A stretch of 64,000 nucleotides of DNA from Alphaproteobacteria bacterium (GCA_030429105.1 JAUIDE010000008.1:16239-80238); one strand, 5' to 3'. Counted from the first letter of the stretch, positions 36,644 to 45,074 are shown. Program-made: numbers and translations. Notes: generated from the sequence alone by a model not told the origin.

Positions 36644-37300
36644 ATGAAACGGAGAACCGGAATGTCACGTTTTTTCAGAATGCTGGGCGCCGCCGCGGCG
36701 ATCCTGTCTCTCGGCCTCGTCATGACCGCCGCGGCCCAGGAAGTCGAGGAGGGCGACGAGGAGGTGGAGCGCTACGTCCTCGCCCCGGGCGACCGGATCG
36801 ACATTTCGGTGCTCGAGGATCCGTCGCTGAACCGGCAGGCGCTGGTTCTGCCGGACGGCCGCATCTCCCTCCCGATCGCGGGCACGCTCCGCGCCACCGG
36901 CAAGACCCCGGAACAGCTCGCCGCGGAGGTGCAGGGCCGGCTCGCCAGCATCTTCGTCGCGCCGCCGACTGTCACCGTCTCGGCCGTCGGCCTCGGCGCG
37001 CTCGGGGCCGAGCCGGAGCCGCAATCGCTGATCTACGTTCTCGGCGAGGTGCGCTCTCCCGGCGCCGTGCCGTTCGACGAGGAGACGCCGCTGACCGTGG
37101 TGCAGACCCTCGCCCTCGTCGGCGGGCCGGCGCCCTTCGCGGCGCGCAAGCGGATCCAGATCCACCGCGAGGTGGACGGGATGAAGACGGTGGAACTCTT
37201 CGACTATGACGCGCTCGAGACCGGGCGGTCGACCGAGGTCGGCCCCCTGCTCGGCGACGGCGACGTCATCATCGTGCCTGAACGCAGCCTCTTCGACTGA
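36644..37300 (+). CDS. Polysaccharide biosynthesis/export (Wza-like) protein
   Basis: Signal peptide; YVLAPGDRIDISVLEDPSLNRQALVLPDGRISLPIAG; SLBB-like YVLGEVRSPGAVPF. Confidence 0.9.
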   Translation: MKRRTGMSRFFRMLGAAAAILSLGLVMTAAAQEVEEGDEEVERYVLAPGDRIDISVLEDPSLNRQALVLPDGRISLPIAGTLRATGKTPEQLAAEVQGRLASIFVAPPTVTVSAVGLGALGAEPEPQSLIYVLGEVRSPGAVPFDEETPLTVVQTLALVGGPAPFAARKRIQIHREVDGMKTVELFDYDALETGRSTEVGPLLGDGDVIIVPERSLFD

Positions 37301-37313
37301 GGCGCAAGCCCCG

Positions 37314-38513
37314 ATGCCATCCACCGGCGCCGAAACCCGCGCGCGCTGGCGCCGCCTCTTCGCCGGGGCGGCGCTGGCTTCGCTCGCCTGCGGCGCGGCC
37401 AGCGCGGACGGCTGGACCATTTCCGGCGCCCTCTCGCAGCGCTTCGGCGCAGACAGCAACCTTACCCTCTCGCAAGGGGGCGACGACCCCACCTTCAGCT
37501 CGACGACGACCGGCAACGTCTCCTTCTCCAGCGCGACCCCGCGCACGTCGCTGAGCGTCACTCCCGGCTTTCGGGCGACGCGGTTCGTCGGCGAAGGCGG
37601 CCGGAACCAGATCACCCCGAGCTTTGGCGGCGGCCTCTCGCATCGCGTCGGGTCGCTCGACCTCAGCAGCGGCCTCTCGCTCGACATCCGGCCGACCGTC
37701 TTTTCCGAACTGGAGGAAGTCGACGACGGCTCCACCGATCTCGACGTCATCCAGCGGAACGCCACCTCGATCAGCGTGCGCGCCTCCGCCGGCGCGGCCT
37801 ACCGGATCGACTCGCGCAACCGGTTCAACCTCGGCTCGAACCTCTCGCTCAGGCGCTTCACCGACGATGCGGACACGCTTACGCCCAGCACCACGATCGG
37901 CGCGAGCGGCGGCTTCTCCCACAGCGTCACCGACTTGACGTCGCTCAGCCTGAACGCCGGGCTGAGCCGCGTCACCTTCGGCGGGACCAACGATTCGGAA
38001 TCGGTCACGGCCAGTTTCGGCGGCGGCGTCAGCACCTCGATCAATCCCGGCTTCAGCTTCGGCGGCCAGATCGGGCTCAACTATTCAGAGACGACGCGAC
38101 CCAACGCCGATGACAGCAGCCGCCTCGGCTTCAGCTTCTCGGCGAACGCCGGCTACGCCGTGAACGAGGCCACGCGCCTCTCCTTCAGCGCGAGCCAGTC
38201 GCTCCAGGCCGGCGCCACCGGCGAGCTGCAGGACCGGCTGCGGGTCAACATGGGCCTCGGCCACAGCATAAACCCGCGCGAGAACGTCTCGTTCTCCCTC
38301 GGCCTGTCGCGGCAGAGCCTCGCATCGACGCTGGGCGGCGGCGGCTCCGGCTCCACCCTCGTGCAGACGAGCCTCGGCTATCAGATCGCGCTCACGCCGG
38401 ACATCAACGCCGGCCTGAACTACAGCCTCCGGCTGCAGCCGGAGGACAGCCTCGATTCCGCGTCGCACAGGCTTTTCTTCACGATCTCGAAAGCCTTCAC
38501 GCTCCAACGCTGA
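37314..38513 (+). CDS. Outer-membrane beta-barrel protein of exopolysaccharide locus
   Basis: 399 aa, signal peptide, alternating hydrophobic strands, C-terminal aromatic-rich strand. Confidence 0.7.
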   Translation: MPSTGAETRARWRRLFAGAALASLACGAASADGWTISGALSQRFGADSNLTLSQGGDDPTFSSTTTGNVSFSSATPRTSLSVTPGFRATRFVGEGGRNQITPSFGGGLSHRVGSLDLSSGLSLDIRPTVFSELEEVDDGSTDLDVIQRNATSISVRASAGAAYRIDSRNRFNLGSNLSLRRFTDDADTLTPSTTIGASGGFSHSVTDLTSLSLNAGLSRVTFGGTNDSESVTASFGGGVSTSINPGFSFGGQIGLNYSETTRPNADDSSRLGFSFSANAGYAVNEATRLSFSASQSLQAGATGELQDRLRVNMGLGHSINPRENVSFSLGLSRQSLASTLGGGGSGSTLVQTSLGYQIALTPDINAGLNYSLRLQPEDSLDSASHRLFFTISKAFTLQR

Positions 38514-38650: not shown

Positions 38651-40096
38651 GTGTCTGATCCGGCTCCGGGCCCATCGGCGTCAGTCGATGGCGGCCGCAA
38701 GTCCTCGGTCGCGATCGTGCCCGGCCTTGTCGGCCTCCTCGACGCGTTCCTGCTCGGCCTCTGCGCGCTGCTCACCTATCGCCGGCTCGTGATCTTCTCG
38801 CACGAGACGGTGGACATCTATGTCGCCACGACCTTCTTCGTCTGCTTCCTCGCGCTCTTTCTCTTCCAGCGCGCGGGGCTCTACGAGATAGACGCGATCA
38901 TGCGCCCGCTGCGCTTTTCGGACACGGTGATCGCCGCGATCGCGACATCCGTCCTCTTCTTCCTCAGCATCGTGGTCGCGCTCCGGGCCGGCGCCGGTTT
39001 GAGCTTCACCTGGCTCCTCGCCTTTGCGGGCTCGGGCGTCGTCGTGCTGATCACCGCGCGGATGCTGGTCTACCTGTTCCTTCTCCGGCTCTCGCGGAAG
39101 GAGCTCATCGGCCGCACCCTCGTCGTCTACGGGGACGGCGAGCAGGCGCGCCGGTTCCTGAAGCGGATCGACGAGGTCCGCCCCTATTTCACCGTGGTGC
39201 GCGGCGTCTACGCCGATGCGGGCGAGCAGGCGCCGACCGAGGTCGCGGGCCGCCCCGTCCTCGGCGGAACGGACAGGCTTCTGCGGGACGTGCGCGCCGG
39301 CTGGATCGACGACGTCGTCATCGCCCTGCCCTGGAGCGAGGACCTCGAACTGGCGCGCATCGTCGAGCGGCTGAAGGAGCTGCCCGTCAACGTCCACATC
39401 GCGAGCGACCTTGTGGGCTTCCGGCTCCGGTTCCGCCCCGTCCTCGGCTCGCTCCAGCAACTCTCGATGTTCGAGGTGGAGCGGCGGCCCATCGCCGGCT
39501 GGAGCTCGCTGCTGAAGGCGCTGGAGGATTATCTCTTCGCCGGGCTCGCCCTGCTCTTCCTCAGCCCGCTTCTGCTGATCGTCGCCATCGCGATCAAGAT
39601 CGACGACCCGAAAGGCCCCGTCTTCTTCATGCAGAAGCGGCTCGGCTTCAACAACCGGCCCTTCGAGATCTACAAGTTCCGCTCCATGTATCACAACCGG
39701 CCGGACGAAGCGGTCGTCCGCCAGGCGACGAAGGGCGACCCACGGGTGACCCGCGTCGGCCGCATCATCCGCGCCACGTCGATCGACGAGCTGCCGCAGC
39801 TCTTCAACGTCCTGAACGGAACCATGTCCCTCGTCGGCCCGCGACCCCACGCGCTCGACCATAACGAGGAATACGGCAGGCAGATCCGCGGCTACTTCAC
39901 CCGTCACAAGGTCAAGCCGGGGATCACCGGCTGGGCGCAGGTGAACGGGCTGCGCGGAGAGACCGAGGATATCGCGAAGATGGAGGCCCGCATCCGGCAT
40001 GACATATACTATGCCGAGAACTGGTCCCTCCTCTTCGATATTAGAATCCTTGTGATGACGGCGCTGGTGGTGTTCTTCCAGAAATCGGCTTATTGA
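38651..40096 (+). CDS. Undecaprenyl-phosphate sugar phosphotransferase (polyprenyl glycosylphosphotransferase)
   Basis: KFRSMYHNR, DELPQLFNVLNGTMSLVGPRPHA, KPGITGWAQVNGLRGET. Confidence 0.93.
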   Translation: MSDPAPGPSASVDGGRKSSVAIVPGLVGLLDAFLLGLCALLTYRRLVIFSHETVDIYVATTFFVCFLALFLFQRAGLYEIDAIMRPLRFSDTVIAAIATSVLFFLSIVVALRAGAGLSFTWLLAFAGSGVVVLITARMLVYLFLLRLSRKELIGRTLVVYGDGEQARRFLKRIDEVRPYFTVVRGVYADAGEQAPTEVAGRPVLGGTDRLLRDVRAGWIDDVVIALPWSEDLELARIVERLKELPVNVHIASDLVGFRLRFRPVLGSLQQLSMFEVERRPIAGWSSLLKALEDYLFAGLALLFLSPLLLIVAIAIKIDDPKGPVFFMQKRLGFNNRPFEIYKFRSMYHNRPDEAVVRQATKGDPRVTRVGRIIRATSIDELPQLFNVLNGTMSLVGPRPHALDHNEEYGRQIRGYFTRHKVKPGITGWAQVNGLRGETEDIAKMEARIRHDIYYAENWSLLFDIRILVMTALVVFFQKSAY

Positions 40097-40216: not shown

Positions 40217-40483
40217 ATGTCCAACCCCTTCGATTCCCGCGCAGCCTCCCTCTCCGGCCCGGGCCTCGACTATGCGCCGGTCGCCCCGTCGAACACCGCG
40301 GCGCTGCCCGACGTCGCCATCGCGCTCTATGTCGAGGCGGGCGGCGCGGTGCGCTTCGTGAGCCAGAAGGGCGCGACGCGGACGGTGACGGTCCCCGATT
40401 ACGGCTGGGTGCTCTGCGGCGTCCGGCAGGTGCTGGCGACCGGAACGACCGCCGGCGGGATCCATGCCGTCGTCGTCAGCTGA
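40217..40483 (+). CDS. Spike base protein, RCAP_rcc01079 (RcGTA head spike)-like
   Basis: 88 aa MSNPFDSRAASLSGPGLDYAPVAPSNTAALPDVAIALYVEAGGAVRFVSQKGATRTVTVPDYGWVLCGVRQVLATGTTAGGIHAVVVS; recalled family pattern. Confidence 0.75.
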   Translation: MSNPFDSRAASLSGPGLDYAPVAPSNTAALPDVAIALYVEAGGAVRFVSQKGATRTVTVPDYGWVLCGVRQVLATGTTAGGIHAVVVS

Positions 40484-40491
40484 GGCCCGGG

Positions 40492-40905
40492 ATGCGGATC
40501 TCTCCCCTTCCCGCCTTCGTGGCGCGGCGCGGGCCCGGAGGGCTCACCGCGTCCCTCGCGGCGACGCTCCCGCATGATGCGGCGGTCGCTGCGCTCGGCC
40601 CGATCCGGGCCTTCGGCGCCGCCGGGCCGCTCTCCCTGCCGGGCGGCGACCTCTCCGCCGCGTCCGGAAGCGCCGGCGGCCGCTTCACGACCTCGACCAC
40701 GGGCGGCGCGATCTCCGTGACCTTCGACAGGAACGGCCTCGGCGACGGCTTCGCCGAGGGCGAGGCGGTCACGACCGCCATAGGCCCGACCGTGACGGAC
40801 GGGGTCTCCGCCGTTCCGGCGCGGCTTCGGGTGACGGTGCGCCGCGCCTACGCCCCGCCGCAACTTCTCGGCCCCATTCCCGATCAGGTGGACCTGCTGT
40901 CATGA
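40492..40905 (+). CDS. Beta-rich hypothetical protein; C-terminus looks like the first strand of a putative-Ig domain
   Basis: 137 aa, ends PPQLLGPIPDQVDLLS*; ATGA overlap with next ORF. Confidence 0.65.
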   Translation: MRISPLPAFVARRGPGGLTASLAATLPHDAAVAALGPIRAFGAAGPLSLPGGDLSAASGSAGGRFTTSTTGGAISVTFDRNGLGDGFAEGEAVTTAIGPTVTDGVSAVPARLRVTVRRAYAPPQLLGPIPDQVDLLS

Positions 40906-43688
40906 CAACCCAACTCGATCTTTCGCTCCATTTCTCCGGCGGCGGCCTCACCTTCTCGGCCGAGGGCCTGCCGCCCGGCCTCTCCATCGATCCGGCGACG
41001 GGAATCGTCTTCGGCGCGCCGACGGCCATCGGCGCCAGCACGGTCACCGTCACCGCCGCGAACGAGAGCGGCGAGGCCTTCGCCAGCTTCTCCTGGCGGA
41101 TCGAGGCGGCGAGCCTCCCCGTCAACGCCGCGGCGCCCGAAATCCTCGGCGCCGCCACGGTGGGCGGAAGCCTGACGGTCGCGCCCGGCTCCTGGACGGG
41201 CCAGCCCGCGCCGACCTTCGGATACCAGTGGCTCCAGAACGGCGTCGCGATCCCCGGCGAGACGGGCGAGACCTATCTCGCGACGGCGGCCGATGTCGGC
41301 GGCGCCCTTTCCGTCGAGGTCACGGCGTCGAACAGCCTCGGCGCGGCGAGCGCGACAAGCGACCCCGTCGTGATCTCGGGCGTGAGCTTCGCGACCGAAC
41401 TCACGCTATCGCCCTTCGCGACCGGCCCCGGCGGCGCGGCGCCGGTCTTCTCCGGGCGGCGGGAGCAGAATTCCGGCCTCGTCCTCGTCTCGGGCGCGGG
41501 GCAGCCCGGCGAGGTGGTGCAGGGCCGCATGGTCCGCGCGGCGGACGGCGCGGCCGTCTCCCCGTGGATGGACATCGCGACGGCGGACGCCGGAAACGGC
41601 GCCTTCGAGGGCTGGATCGAGGGCGCCCCGCGCAGCTTCGACGCGCTCCGCGCGCAGGTCCGCTACCGCGACGCCGGCAACGCCCCGGCGGCGACCCCGA
41701 ACACCTGCCATGTCGGCTGGGTCATGTCGCTCTTCGCGCAGTCGGACCAGCGCTGGCTGGGCGATACGACCTTCGAGGGCGTCTCGCTCACGCCGACCGT
41801 CGCGCTGGCGGACAACGCCGTCAGGGTCATCTCGCTGGCGCGGGACGCGATCACGCCGGCGCCCGTCACCGCGGCCCAGTTGCTCGTCTTCGACGTGGCG
41901 GGCGCGGCGCCGGCGGGGCGCGATCCGGTCTGGCGCTTCGCCAACACGCTGGCGGAGACGCTGGATGACGGCCCGATCGTCGTCATGGGTCACGCCGTCT
42001 CCGGCACGAACGACCGGCAGACGGTCAACGATTCCGACAATGGCCGCTTCTGGGAGGACGAGGTTCTCATCGCGCAGGCGGGCCAGCCCCATCTGATCGA
42101 GACGGACCGGCCGGTCGCGCTCGATCTCGTCTACTGGGCCTATTCCTCCTCGGCCAACTACAACACCGCGGCCTCCGCCCTTGGCGTCACCGGCCGCGTC
42201 GCCTTCGGGCTGGACCCGTCCGGAAATCCGGTGCCCCCCGGCACGGCGATCACCGATCTCGGCGGCTCCTTCAACTATGTGCAGCATCATTCCTGGGCGG
42301 AAATCTACGACTGGGCGCATACCCGCCTCGCCTTCAAGCAGCACCCGGACGCGCCCGTCGTGGCGGCGCAGGAGGCCTTCATCGGCCATCCGGTCTACGG
42401 ACAATACGTCATCGGCTTCCCCGCCGCGTTCTCGGCCTACTGGCTCACGAACGGGACGCGCGCAGCGGACGGGACATGGTTCGACGGCGGCCATTCCTCC
42501 ATCAACCAGATCGGCGGCGCCTCGGAAATCGCCGCGCTGGCGGCGGCGGGCATGGCCCGGGCGGTCGGCGCCTACGATCCGGGCCCGCTTGTCCTCGACT
42601 ATATCGACTGGCCGACGGCCTCGGGGGACGATCCGAAATACGTCCATGTCGGCATCGGGGGCCGGGACGTCACGACCATGCGCGCCCTCTATGCGGAGCA
42701 GACCCCGCCAGTCGCCATCGGCGGCGACCCGGTGCTCGGCGGCGTCCTCGGCTTCACCGTCAACGGGACGCGGACGGTGAACACCGCCCTCGCGGCGCAT
42801 GAGGGCTTCCAGCGAATCCGCATCGGCAAGCAGGACGGCTCCGACTGGACCAATGCCGACACGCTCGCCTACGAAACGGTCTCGATCAACTACGGCGACC
42901 TCGTGGGCGTGACGCCGGACCAGGGCCGGGACACGCTCTCGCGGTTCCAGGACTTCCCCATCGTCGAGAGCGGCCTCGTCTCGAAGCCGGGAATGCCGGT
43001 TTCGGACCGGGTCGCGGCCGGGCTCTTCGCCAACCAGATCCCCGCCCCGGCGGGCGCATCGCTTGTCCATCTCGGCAGTTTCGAGCCCGGCGGGATCAAT
43101 TCCACCCCGGTGACGATAGGCTCTATCGTTTCCGACGGCCGCCCGATCCTGATCGCCCTCGGAACGCGCGGCACCTCGAACATCGAGAACGGAACCTTCG
43201 ACTTCCCGGCCACGATCACGCTTGGCGGCGTGGACATCGGCGCGGCGCTCGTCGCCCGGCAGGACCGGATGAACATCAAGGCGTCGGTCTACTACATCGC
43301 CGCTCCGGCGACGGGCGCGCTCGATCTCGTCGCGACGATGAACACGAACACCTTCGTCAACGTCGCGCAGGCGTTCCATGTCGCCAACGGGGCGGGCCTC
43401 GGGAGCGTATCGCAGGTCGGGGTATCCGCCGGCGGGACGATCAACCCGGCGCTCGTGTCCTCGGCGGCGGGCTCGACGCTCGTCAACGTGCTGGTGACGG
43501 AGGTGGTCATCAACTCGGTCGCGGGCGGCTATCTCGCGGCCCCCATTCAGGGCACTGGCGGCGGCGCCTTCCTCGGCATGGCGGTCGCGACGACCGTGGT
43601 GCCGGGGGTCGGCGAGAAGACGACGACCTTCGGCGTCGCCGGCTTCAATGACACGGTGCAGCTCGGCGTCGAGGTGCGGAAGCTCTGA
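40902..43688 (+). CDS. Large spike/fibre-like protein with Ig-like domains and an SGNH-esterase-like block
   Basis: 928 aa; LTFSAEGLPPGLSIDPATGIVFGAPT, LTVAPGSWTGQPAPTFGYQWLQNGVAIPGETGETY, WFDGGHSSINQIG; beta-rich C-terminus. Confidence 0.7.
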   Translation: MTTQLDLSLHFSGGGLTFSAEGLPPGLSIDPATGIVFGAPTAIGASTVTVTAANESGEAFASFSWRIEAASLPVNAAAPEILGAATVGGSLTVAPGSWTGQPAPTFGYQWLQNGVAIPGETGETYLATAADVGGALSVEVTASNSLGAASATSDPVVISGVSFATELTLSPFATGPGGAAPVFSGRREQNSGLVLVSGAGQPGEVVQGRMVRAADGAAVSPWMDIATADAGNGAFEGWIEGAPRSFDALRAQVRYRDAGNAPAATPNTCHVGWVMSLFAQSDQRWLGDTTFEGVSLTPTVALADNAVRVISLARDAITPAPVTAAQLLVFDVAGAAPAGRDPVWRFANTLAETLDDGPIVVMGHAVSGTNDRQTVNDSDNGRFWEDEVLIAQAGQPHLIETDRPVALDLVYWAYSSSANYNTAASALGVTGRVAFGLDPSGNPVPPGTAITDLGGSFNYVQHHSWAEIYDWAHTRLAFKQHPDAPVVAAQEAFIGHPVYGQYVIGFPAAFSAYWLTNGTRAADGTWFDGGHSSINQIGGASEIAALAAAGMARAVGAYDPGPLVLDYIDWPTASGDDPKYVHVGIGGRDVTTMRALYAEQTPPVAIGGDPVLGGVLGFTVNGTRTVNTALAAHEGFQRIRIGKQDGSDWTNADTLAYETVSINYGDLVGVTPDQGRDTLSRFQDFPIVESGLVSKPGMPVSDRVAAGLFANQIPAPAGASLVHLGSFEPGGINSTPVTIGSIVSDGRPILIALGTRGTSNIENGTFDFPATITLGGVDIGAALVARQDRMNIKASVYYIAAPATGALDLVATMNTNTFVNVAQAFHVANGAGLGSVSQVGVSAGGTINPALVSSAAGSTLVNVLVTEVVINSVAGGYLAAPIQGTGGGAFLGMAVATTVVPGVGEKTTTFGVAGFNDTVQLGVEVRKL

Positions 43689-43718: not shown

Positions 43719-43740
43719 GCCCGGCCCGAAAGGGCCGGGC
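43719..43740. terminator. Bidirectional terminator hairpin between spike cassette and phn operon
   Basis: gcccggccc-gaaa-gggccgggc perfect 9-bp stem, GAAA loop, between convergent genes. Confidence 0.7.
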
Positions 43741-43742
43741 AT

Positions 43743-45074
43743 TCATGCGCCCTTGATGAGCCTCCGCCGCAGCCAGCCGGAAACCGTGTCCATGAACATC
43801 ACCATGAGGACGATGAGGACCATGTAATAGGTCACCTCTTCCCAGTCCTTCTGCGTGATGATCGCCTGCGTGAGCAGCAACCCGATCCCGCCGCCGACGA
43901 TTGCGCCGATCACCGTGGCCGAACGGGTGTTGGACTCGAGATAGTAGAGCACCTGGGAGAGGATCACCGGCATCACCTGCGGGATGACGCCGAAGCGATA
44001 GCGCTGCACCGGCTTCGAGCCCGTGGAGCGCACCCCCTCGATCTGCTTCTCGTCCACGTTCTCCAGCGCTTCGGAGAAGATCTTCCCGAATGTCCCGGTA
44101 TCCGTGATGAGGATGGCGAGCGAGCCGGTCAGCGGCCCCGGCCCGAAAGCGCGGGAGAGGATGATCGTCCAGATCAGCCCGTCCACCCCGCGCAGGAAGT
44201 CGAAGAGCCGCCGCACGCCGAACCGGGCCGCCGCCGCCGGCGCGAAGTTCTTCGCCGCGACGAAGCCGAGCGGCAAGGCGATGATCGCCGCGCCCATCGT
44301 GCCGAGGAAGGCCATCAGGATCGTCTCGAAGATCGCCCAGGCGACATCGCCGTGCCGCCACATCCTGTTCGTCCAGAACTCGGAAAGCATGTAGCCGAGA
44401 TTGGACCGCGCCTCGTCGATCCGCGGCTCCCAGAGCGCGAGCGCCCTGAGCTCGCCGAGGGAGCGGCCGGAGAACGGGCTGTCCAGCGTGAAGAAGAAGA
44501 GCTCCCAGCCCGCGAAATAGCGGAACGCCTCCGTCCTGTTGCGGGTCAGCGAAAGGCGCCCCGCCTCGGTGTTGATCGCGACGCGCGTGTCGGAGGCGTT
44601 GATCCAGTCGGGGACCTCGGAAAGCGCGGGCGGAAGCGTCAGCGCGATCCGCCGCCCCTCGGTGCGCAAGACGATCTCCCCGTATTCCGGGTGGAGATAG
44701 CGCGCGCCCTCCGGCTCGAAGATCGCCTCATGGCCGTCCCGGAGCGCGATGCGGACGCCGCCTTCCGTCTCCTCCACCCAGTCCGGGAAGGTCCCCGCCG
44801 GATAGGCGCCCTTCGCCTCGCCCTCGATGGCAGCCGTGATCTCGCCGTTCCGGTTGTCCTTCGTGACATGCGTCTTGTAGCTCCAGAAATCGGAGACGAG
44901 GATCGCCGCATTGTCGAGCCGCGCCCGCTGCGCGAGGCCAGGCAGGTCGAAGGCGAAGAAGATATAGACGAAATAGAGGAGGATCGCGGCGGGAACCCCG
45001 AAGGCGACGATCCGCTTCCGCCGGAACAACCCGTGCGCCGCCTCCCGATGGCCGCCTCCCAAAGCCACGCTCAT
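43743..45074 (-). CDS. phnE: Phosphonate ABC transporter permease (N-terminally extended)
   Basis: 443 aa; FFDFLRGVDGLIWTIILSRAFGPGPLTGSLAI. Confidence 0.9.
   Translation of the reverse strand: MSVALGGGHREAAHGLFRRKRIVAFGVPAAILLYFVYIFFAFDLPGLAQRARLDNAAILVSDFWSYKTHVTKDNRNGEITAAIEGEAKGAYPAGTFPDWVEETEGGVRIALRDGHEAIFEPEGARYLHPEYGEIVLRTEGRRIALTLPPALSEVPDWINASDTRVAINTEAGRLSLTRNRTEAFRYFAGWELFFFTLDSPFSGRSLGELRALALWEPRIDEARSNLGYMLSEFWTNRMWRHGDVAWAIFETILMAFLGTMGAAIIALPLGFVAAKNFAPAAAARFGVRRLFDFLRGVDGLIWTIILSRAFGPGPLTGSLAILITDTGTFGKIFSEALENVDEKQIEGVRSTGSKPVQRYRFGVIPQVMPVILSQVLYYLESNTRSATVIGAIVGGGIGLLLTQAIITQKDWEEVTYYMVLIVLMVMFMDTVSGWLRRRLIKGA

Follow-up and report, generated by a model that had tools for sequence, protein, structure and literature searches.

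A detached GTA-type head-spike cassette with a putative two-chain fibre and an esterase-like module beside polysaccharide genes in an alphaproteobacterium

Gene transfer agents (GTAs), virus-like particles that carry DNA, are believed to pass genes between related cells, which raises the question of how they find their kin. The closest described system is the head spike of the Rhodobacter capsulatus GTA (RcGTA), formed by GhsA and GhsB (Rcc01079 and Rcc01080). The base family attaches to capsids, and residues 2-10 of the 325-aa, single-chain fibre bind the base pentamer (PMC7296036). Capsule genes of R. capsulatus lie beside its head-spike genes and share their regulation (PMC10218006), and CtrA half-sites have been reported at ghsAB (PMC9638019).

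The cassette described here lies in a 64,000-nucleotide stretch of DNA (the window) on a contig of ~80 kb, from an alphaproteobacterial genome of 4.46 Mb. It resembles ghsAB in the family of its base, its detached locus, the fibre gene directly behind the base, and the adjacent polysaccharide genes (PMC10218006, PMC7296036). It differs from the RcGTA genes in that the base belongs to a sister clade, the fibre comprises 1065 aa in two chains and carries an esterase-like module, and the upstream region lacks a CtrA half-site. The original prediction, which had read the cassette as an RcGTA-type spike locus, is supported as to the kind of locus, although the base is not of Rcc01079's own clade and the locus has no CtrA half-site of its own. 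To that prediction the analysis adds a fibre putatively split within an Ig domain, a module resembling esterases, and statistical support for the link to polysaccharide genes.

The spike base, its relatives, and the GTA cluster

Three ORFs of 88, 137, and 928 aa make up the unit, all on the + strand and at the places originally predicted: the spike base gene (40217..40483), p137 (40492..40905), and p928 (40902..43688), the last encoding the distal fibre part. The HMM search proposed for the 88-aa protein bore out its assignment, as it scores 84.9 bits (cut-off 28, E 3.5e-24) against NF048002, "spike base protein, RCAP_Rcc01079 family," and it is the single such protein in the genome. Its best PDB match is Rcc01079 of the RcGTA particle (6tb9, E 8e-5). 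Alignment A1 and a tree bear on its placement. In the tree, NF048002 proteins divide into two clades split at 100/99, with Rcc01079 in one and the window's base in the other. Judged by sequence, the window's spike base is thus a member of a sister clade of Rcc01079/GhsA within the same family.

Of 150 genomes from the bacterial family, 46 encode NF048002 proteins. The window's clade is found in the named Rhodobacterales genera Halovulum, Oceanibium, Thioclava, Celeribacter, Ruegeria, Aliiroseovarius, Roseovarius, Maritimibacter, and Rhodovulum, and it occurs both as stand-alone cassettes in many genera and in phages, prophages, and viral contigs. In some of these viral contigs the base lies close to apparent head genes or follows a gp15-like gene; because the window's clade served as query for the viral sample, it supports no inference on viruses of the other clade. 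Related loci on bacterial chromosomes usually consist of a base and one fibre gene of ~240-430 aa, mostly joined by a 4-nt ATGA overlap. Against this typical length, the 137 + 928 aa of the window bear out the suggestion of an enlarged receptor-binding variant.

Several minor features of these relatives deserve mention. The viral contig L171:331-7209 holds a spike base that is among the nearest relatives of the window's (65%), together with a GTA-like tape measure fragment (46%). Two spike-base loci each are found in G060, G061, G001, and G132, with one per clade in G060 and G061, which suggests interchangeable or alternative spikes. In many related cassettes a third small gene (~104-140 aa, with a start like MRITIACPEALIVEANQLM) lies directly behind the fibre (L041:10611-11006, L071, L106, L112, L122, L136, L148, L150, L159, L169, and L174:9445-9834); it has no Pfam or PHROG match, and the window does not contain such a gene.

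In agreement with the original prediction that the window has no capsid or tail genes, searches with ten GTA structural proteins gave no homologue there or in the sequence at either end of the contig. An RcGTA-type cluster is present on another contig, C90, which encodes an HK97-type portal, protease, capsid, and head-tail connector, the RcGTA-type tape measure NF058675 (above cut-off), and TIGR02217, TIGR02218, TIGR02219, and GTA_TIM proteins, the GTA_TIM gene reaching near the contig end. Since the cluster is located there, the spike unit is detached. A third contig bears a 386-aa open frame with a DUF6456 domain (E 2.8e-55), the annotation given to GafA homologues (PMC9638019), which makes the frame a candidate GafA-type regulator. 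The second species of the genus, G102, has a one-contig genome in which the spike unit lies ~1.5 Mb from a GTA cluster whose capsid and portal are 84% and 81% identical to those on C90. A GTA is present in 13 of 16 genomes with this spike type against a background of 111 of 150, which is not clearly above it; GTA clusters are so widespread that such co-occurrence carries no information. In G113 (C2:304593-305249), the RcGTA-type tape measure frame contains one internal TGA.

A putative two-chain fibre with an esterase-like module

The two larger ORFs had been described as Ig-like and fibre-like, and this holds for p928 in particular, which contains a He_PIG domain and an Ig stretch common to phage virion proteins. 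Residues 1-67 of p928 (41 bits to PF05345; 40902..41102, +) would form the rest of a He_PIG Ig domain: residues 11-67 match profile positions 32-95 only, and the first 31 positions are unmatched in p928 and, by profile, in p137. Running the Pfam He_PIG profile on the joined chains gave no extension into p137. The joined chains align with a large adhesin of G052 ungapped across the junction, however, with PPQLLGPIPDQVDLLS/MTTQLDLS opposite APVVVTPQADQVSTDGEVISLDVS. The case for a split domain is therefore one of alignment and not of profile match, since the profile stops short of p137; its bases are the pairwise alignment to this one adhesin chain and conservation in G102. p137 comprises an N-terminal anchor-like peptide, an Ig/cadherin-like domain, and, by alignment, strand A of the He_PIG domain. 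It aligns to adhesin segments, of which a fragment matches Big_9/Cadherin_4. The second Ig-like domain of p928 (residues 73-159; 41118..41378, +) matches phrog_12736 (E 2e-12), a "virion structural protein," and phrog_26223 (E 1e-13), and it recurs in other spike-locus fibres.

The two genes overlap at ATGA (40902..40905, +), where the p137 stop and the p928 start meet in a -1 frame relation. The same split is found at the same place in G102, with p137 53-54% and the start of p928 50% identical, so that the arrangement is known from two species. Differences between the two species by codon position are 0.39/0.26/0.58 for p137 and, as a weaker pattern, 0.30/0.35/0.46 for the p928 start. Sequencing error as the origin of the split was ruled out, as the one-contig assembly of G102 shares it.

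Related fibres start with a short peptide rich in alternating hydrophobics (MIGFSLGL, MLISIGIG, MKFTCDFSFTS), reminiscent of RcGTA fibre residues 2-10 (PMC7296036). The p137 N-terminus, MRISPLPAF, resembles its close relatives MRLGPALSPM and MRFAPGLTLT and fits the alternating IALGLGLGL poorly. On these sequence comparisons, we infer that p137 and p928 complement each other as chains of one enlarged fibre.

The central part of p928, an acetylesterase-like module (residues 188-719; 41463..43060, +), can be aligned to fibres from other genera, which start with an anchor-like peptide. Modelling the entire p928 chain from seven sequences gave low confidence (pLDDT 44.5), whereas AlphaFold on the module alone with 22 sequences gave pLDDT 75.5 and pTM 0.79, predicting a beta-sandwich plus an SGNH-type fold. 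The best Foldseek matches were XAC1771 (2e-9), SIAE (8e-9), and CE20 (2.5e-5), and all seven significant PDB matches were carbohydrate acetylesterases, among them XAC1771, two SIAE entries, FI8, and PpCE20_II. TM-scores to the PDB entries were a modest 0.14-0.41, so the match holds at the level of fold class. Viral structure matches include the adhesion protein of Salmonella phage ViI, a capsule deacetylase. QS, GT, and D..H are invariant in the six-sequence alignment A4, and the candidate catalytic residues Ser281 (41742-41744), Asp528 (42483-42485), and His531 (42492-42494, all +) fall in such columns; QS is at least 90% conserved in the 22-sequence module alignment. No esterase-family profile in Pfam or NCBIfam matches the module. 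Its activity is thus a prediction, and it is classed as fold-like and not as a CE20 or SIAE member. The resemblance to phage capsule deacetylases, CE20, and SIAE lies in the predicted fold, the Ser and Asp-x-x-His motifs, and the position on a virion receptor-binding protein; the module differs from them in a sequence similarity undetectable by profiles and, from the phage deacetylases, in that it would sit on GTA head spikes and not on a phage tail.

A profile search found the module in 22 of 397 genomes; in eight genomes a spike base is no more than 1.5 kb away from it, and single-ORF fibres with the same module adjoin spike bases in other genera. Relatives of the module were undetectable by tblastn in phage records and IMG/VR. 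Going by the model, the module probably removes acetyl groups from polysaccharide. There is some, lesser chance that it serves as a non-catalytic binding domain, given its low identity to any characterised enzyme and the missing profile match, the AQSD in place of GQSN in block I of the window, and the low-confidence stretch of the model (331-341) that spans the Asp position. Against a purely binding role speak the Ser281, Asp528, and His531 columns, invariant across the six sequences, and nearest structures that are all acetylesterases.

How the two chains are produced and joined allows other readings. Programmed frameshifting yields Ig extensions in phages (PMC5009743), as in capsid and tail proteins of T3, A2, and A118, where Ig domains are likewise reached through a frame change, and here the frames are -1 related and the domain runs on without a gap. 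A -1 frameshift would let a single message encode both a short root and the complete fibre. In neither species does the stretch from PDQ to the stop contain a slippery heptamer (CCTGCTGTCATGA, TTTCCTGCCATGA), which is why coupled reinitiation producing two chains is preferred; in addition, the base-fibre overlaps of related loci are also mostly the 4-nt ATGA that is the usual sign of such coupling. Frameshifting is accordingly considered unlikely. The window also departs from the T3, A2, and A118 extensions in that its break falls inside an Ig domain, where stop and start overlap at ATGA and there is no slippery site. Less probable again is that p928 forms a second, independent fibre docking to the base through its own N-terminus, giving two kinds of spike per particle. 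The alternation at residues 5, 7, 9, and 11 in QLDLSLHF does resemble the RcGTA anchor (PMC7296036), but in the adhesin chain homologous to the fibre this stretch is part of the He_PIG domain, and p928 by itself would be one strand short of that domain.

Linkage to polysaccharide genes

Polysaccharide genes adjoin the spike unit upstream and on the same strand, as the original prediction had noted. The block's first gene (36644..37300, +) encodes a polysaccharide export protein with Poly_export and SLBB domains (PF02563, E 8.7e-20) and has a 59% identical counterpart at the equivalent position in G102. It is followed by an outer-membrane beta-barrel protein (37206..38513, +; weak TIGR03016/OMP matches, 38% identical in G102), whose true start is probably near 37300, and by a WcaJ-type undecaprenyl-phosphate glucose phosphotransferase (38651..40096, +; TIGR03023 at 460 bits, cut-off 411). 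WcaJ is the one match detected in the genome to PF02397, a group of enzymes that initiate the synthesis of surface polysaccharides; the family average is two. From the export protein through the barrel and WcaJ to the base, p137, and p928, the genes form a single same-strand block in both this genome (G000) and G102, and the genes flanking it differ.

The proposed check of synteny between spike base and sugar transferase revealed a PF02397-type homologue within 8 kb in 15 of the 80 related spike-base loci, where 0.57 were expected; the matches come partly from related genomes, and an estimate of ~8 independent lineages gives P ~2e-7. Linkage between polysaccharide and spike genes as such is already known from R. 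capsulatus (PMC10218006); what is new is that it recurs in a second clade. The draft genome of another congener, G151, provides a single case of a different arrangement: no PF02397 gene and no p137 relative were detected, and its spike base (L079:9019-9282) is followed by an epimerase gene, with no fibre beside it.

Proposed function and transcription of the cassette

It is likely, from the genes, that the cassette functions in GTA particles. The fuller reading, which we hold to be fairly probable, is that the cassette specifies head spikes for the bacterium's own RcGTA-type GTA, with a two-chain esterase fibre targeting the neighbour-encoded polysaccharide. As established for RcGTA, base pentamers would sit on capsid vertices with one fibre each. 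The root of the fibre would be p137, its N-terminal peptide docked in the base; behind this peptide would come a stalk domain of Ig type and then a single strand of the next Ig domain. Translational coupling at ATGA would yield p928, contributing the remaining strands of that domain, so that p137 and p928 would join without a covalent bond to form one fibre. The distal part, given its predicted esterase fold, may take O-acetyl groups off a capsule or matrix polysaccharide during binding. The linkage suggests that the target is probably the polysaccharide begun by the upstream WcaJ, in which case receptor and key would be inherited together.

Two accounts of the whole unit dispense with a GTA particle. 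The cassette could be the leftover of a decayed prophage that serves no particle now; related bases do occur in prophage head or tail regions, and no other phage gene lies close by. This is improbable given that stand-alone cassettes of the clade recur across many genera, that the three ORFs are intact in two species, that changes in the base and p137 are in excess at third codon positions, and that the genome has a GTA cluster. The same cluster weighs against a cell-surface adhesin unrelated to any particle, to which Ig and cadherin-like domains, typical of adhesins, and the polysaccharide genes next door might point. With a base family that attaches to capsids (PMC7296036) and virion-type domains in p928, an adhesin is very unlikely.

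A further extension of the head-spike reading is put forward tentatively and is less likely than not: a GTA whose split-Ig, two-chain head fibre deacetylates the neighbour-encoded polysaccharide could make of the cassette a heritable lock-and-key, directing exchange to cells with the same polysaccharide. G151, with no detectable PF02397 sugar transferase and no fibre beside its spike base, is in line with this. The spike cassette has its own putative polysaccharide-modifying enzyme and is linked to polysaccharide genes in many genera, beyond R. capsulatus, and this linkage makes inherited recognition directly testable in culturable relatives such as Halovulum, Thioclava, and Celeribacter. Should particles prove to contain both chains, the split Ig domain would be an unusual joint between an interchangeable receptor-binding head and a fixed root.

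In the 200 bases upstream of the 80 related bases, TTAACC/GGTTAA occurs 19 times against 3.8 in shuffles (maximum 10), in agreement with the CtrA half-sites at ghsAB (PMC9638019). The window's own upstream region contains no TTAA/CtrA half-site, and no sigma-70-like promoter was found for the unit, which may be read through from wcaJ. Behind the last gene, between convergent genes, lies a stem-loop (43719..43740, +) with a perfect 9-bp stem and a GAAA loop that is more stable than shuffles (z -4.1). It had been called a perfect terminator, which is right for the stem only, as a T-run is absent. The convergent gene (43743-45074, -) encodes a PhnE-type permease with ~220 extra N-terminal residues, and its neighbours encode another PhnE, an ATPase, and a phosphonate-binding protein.
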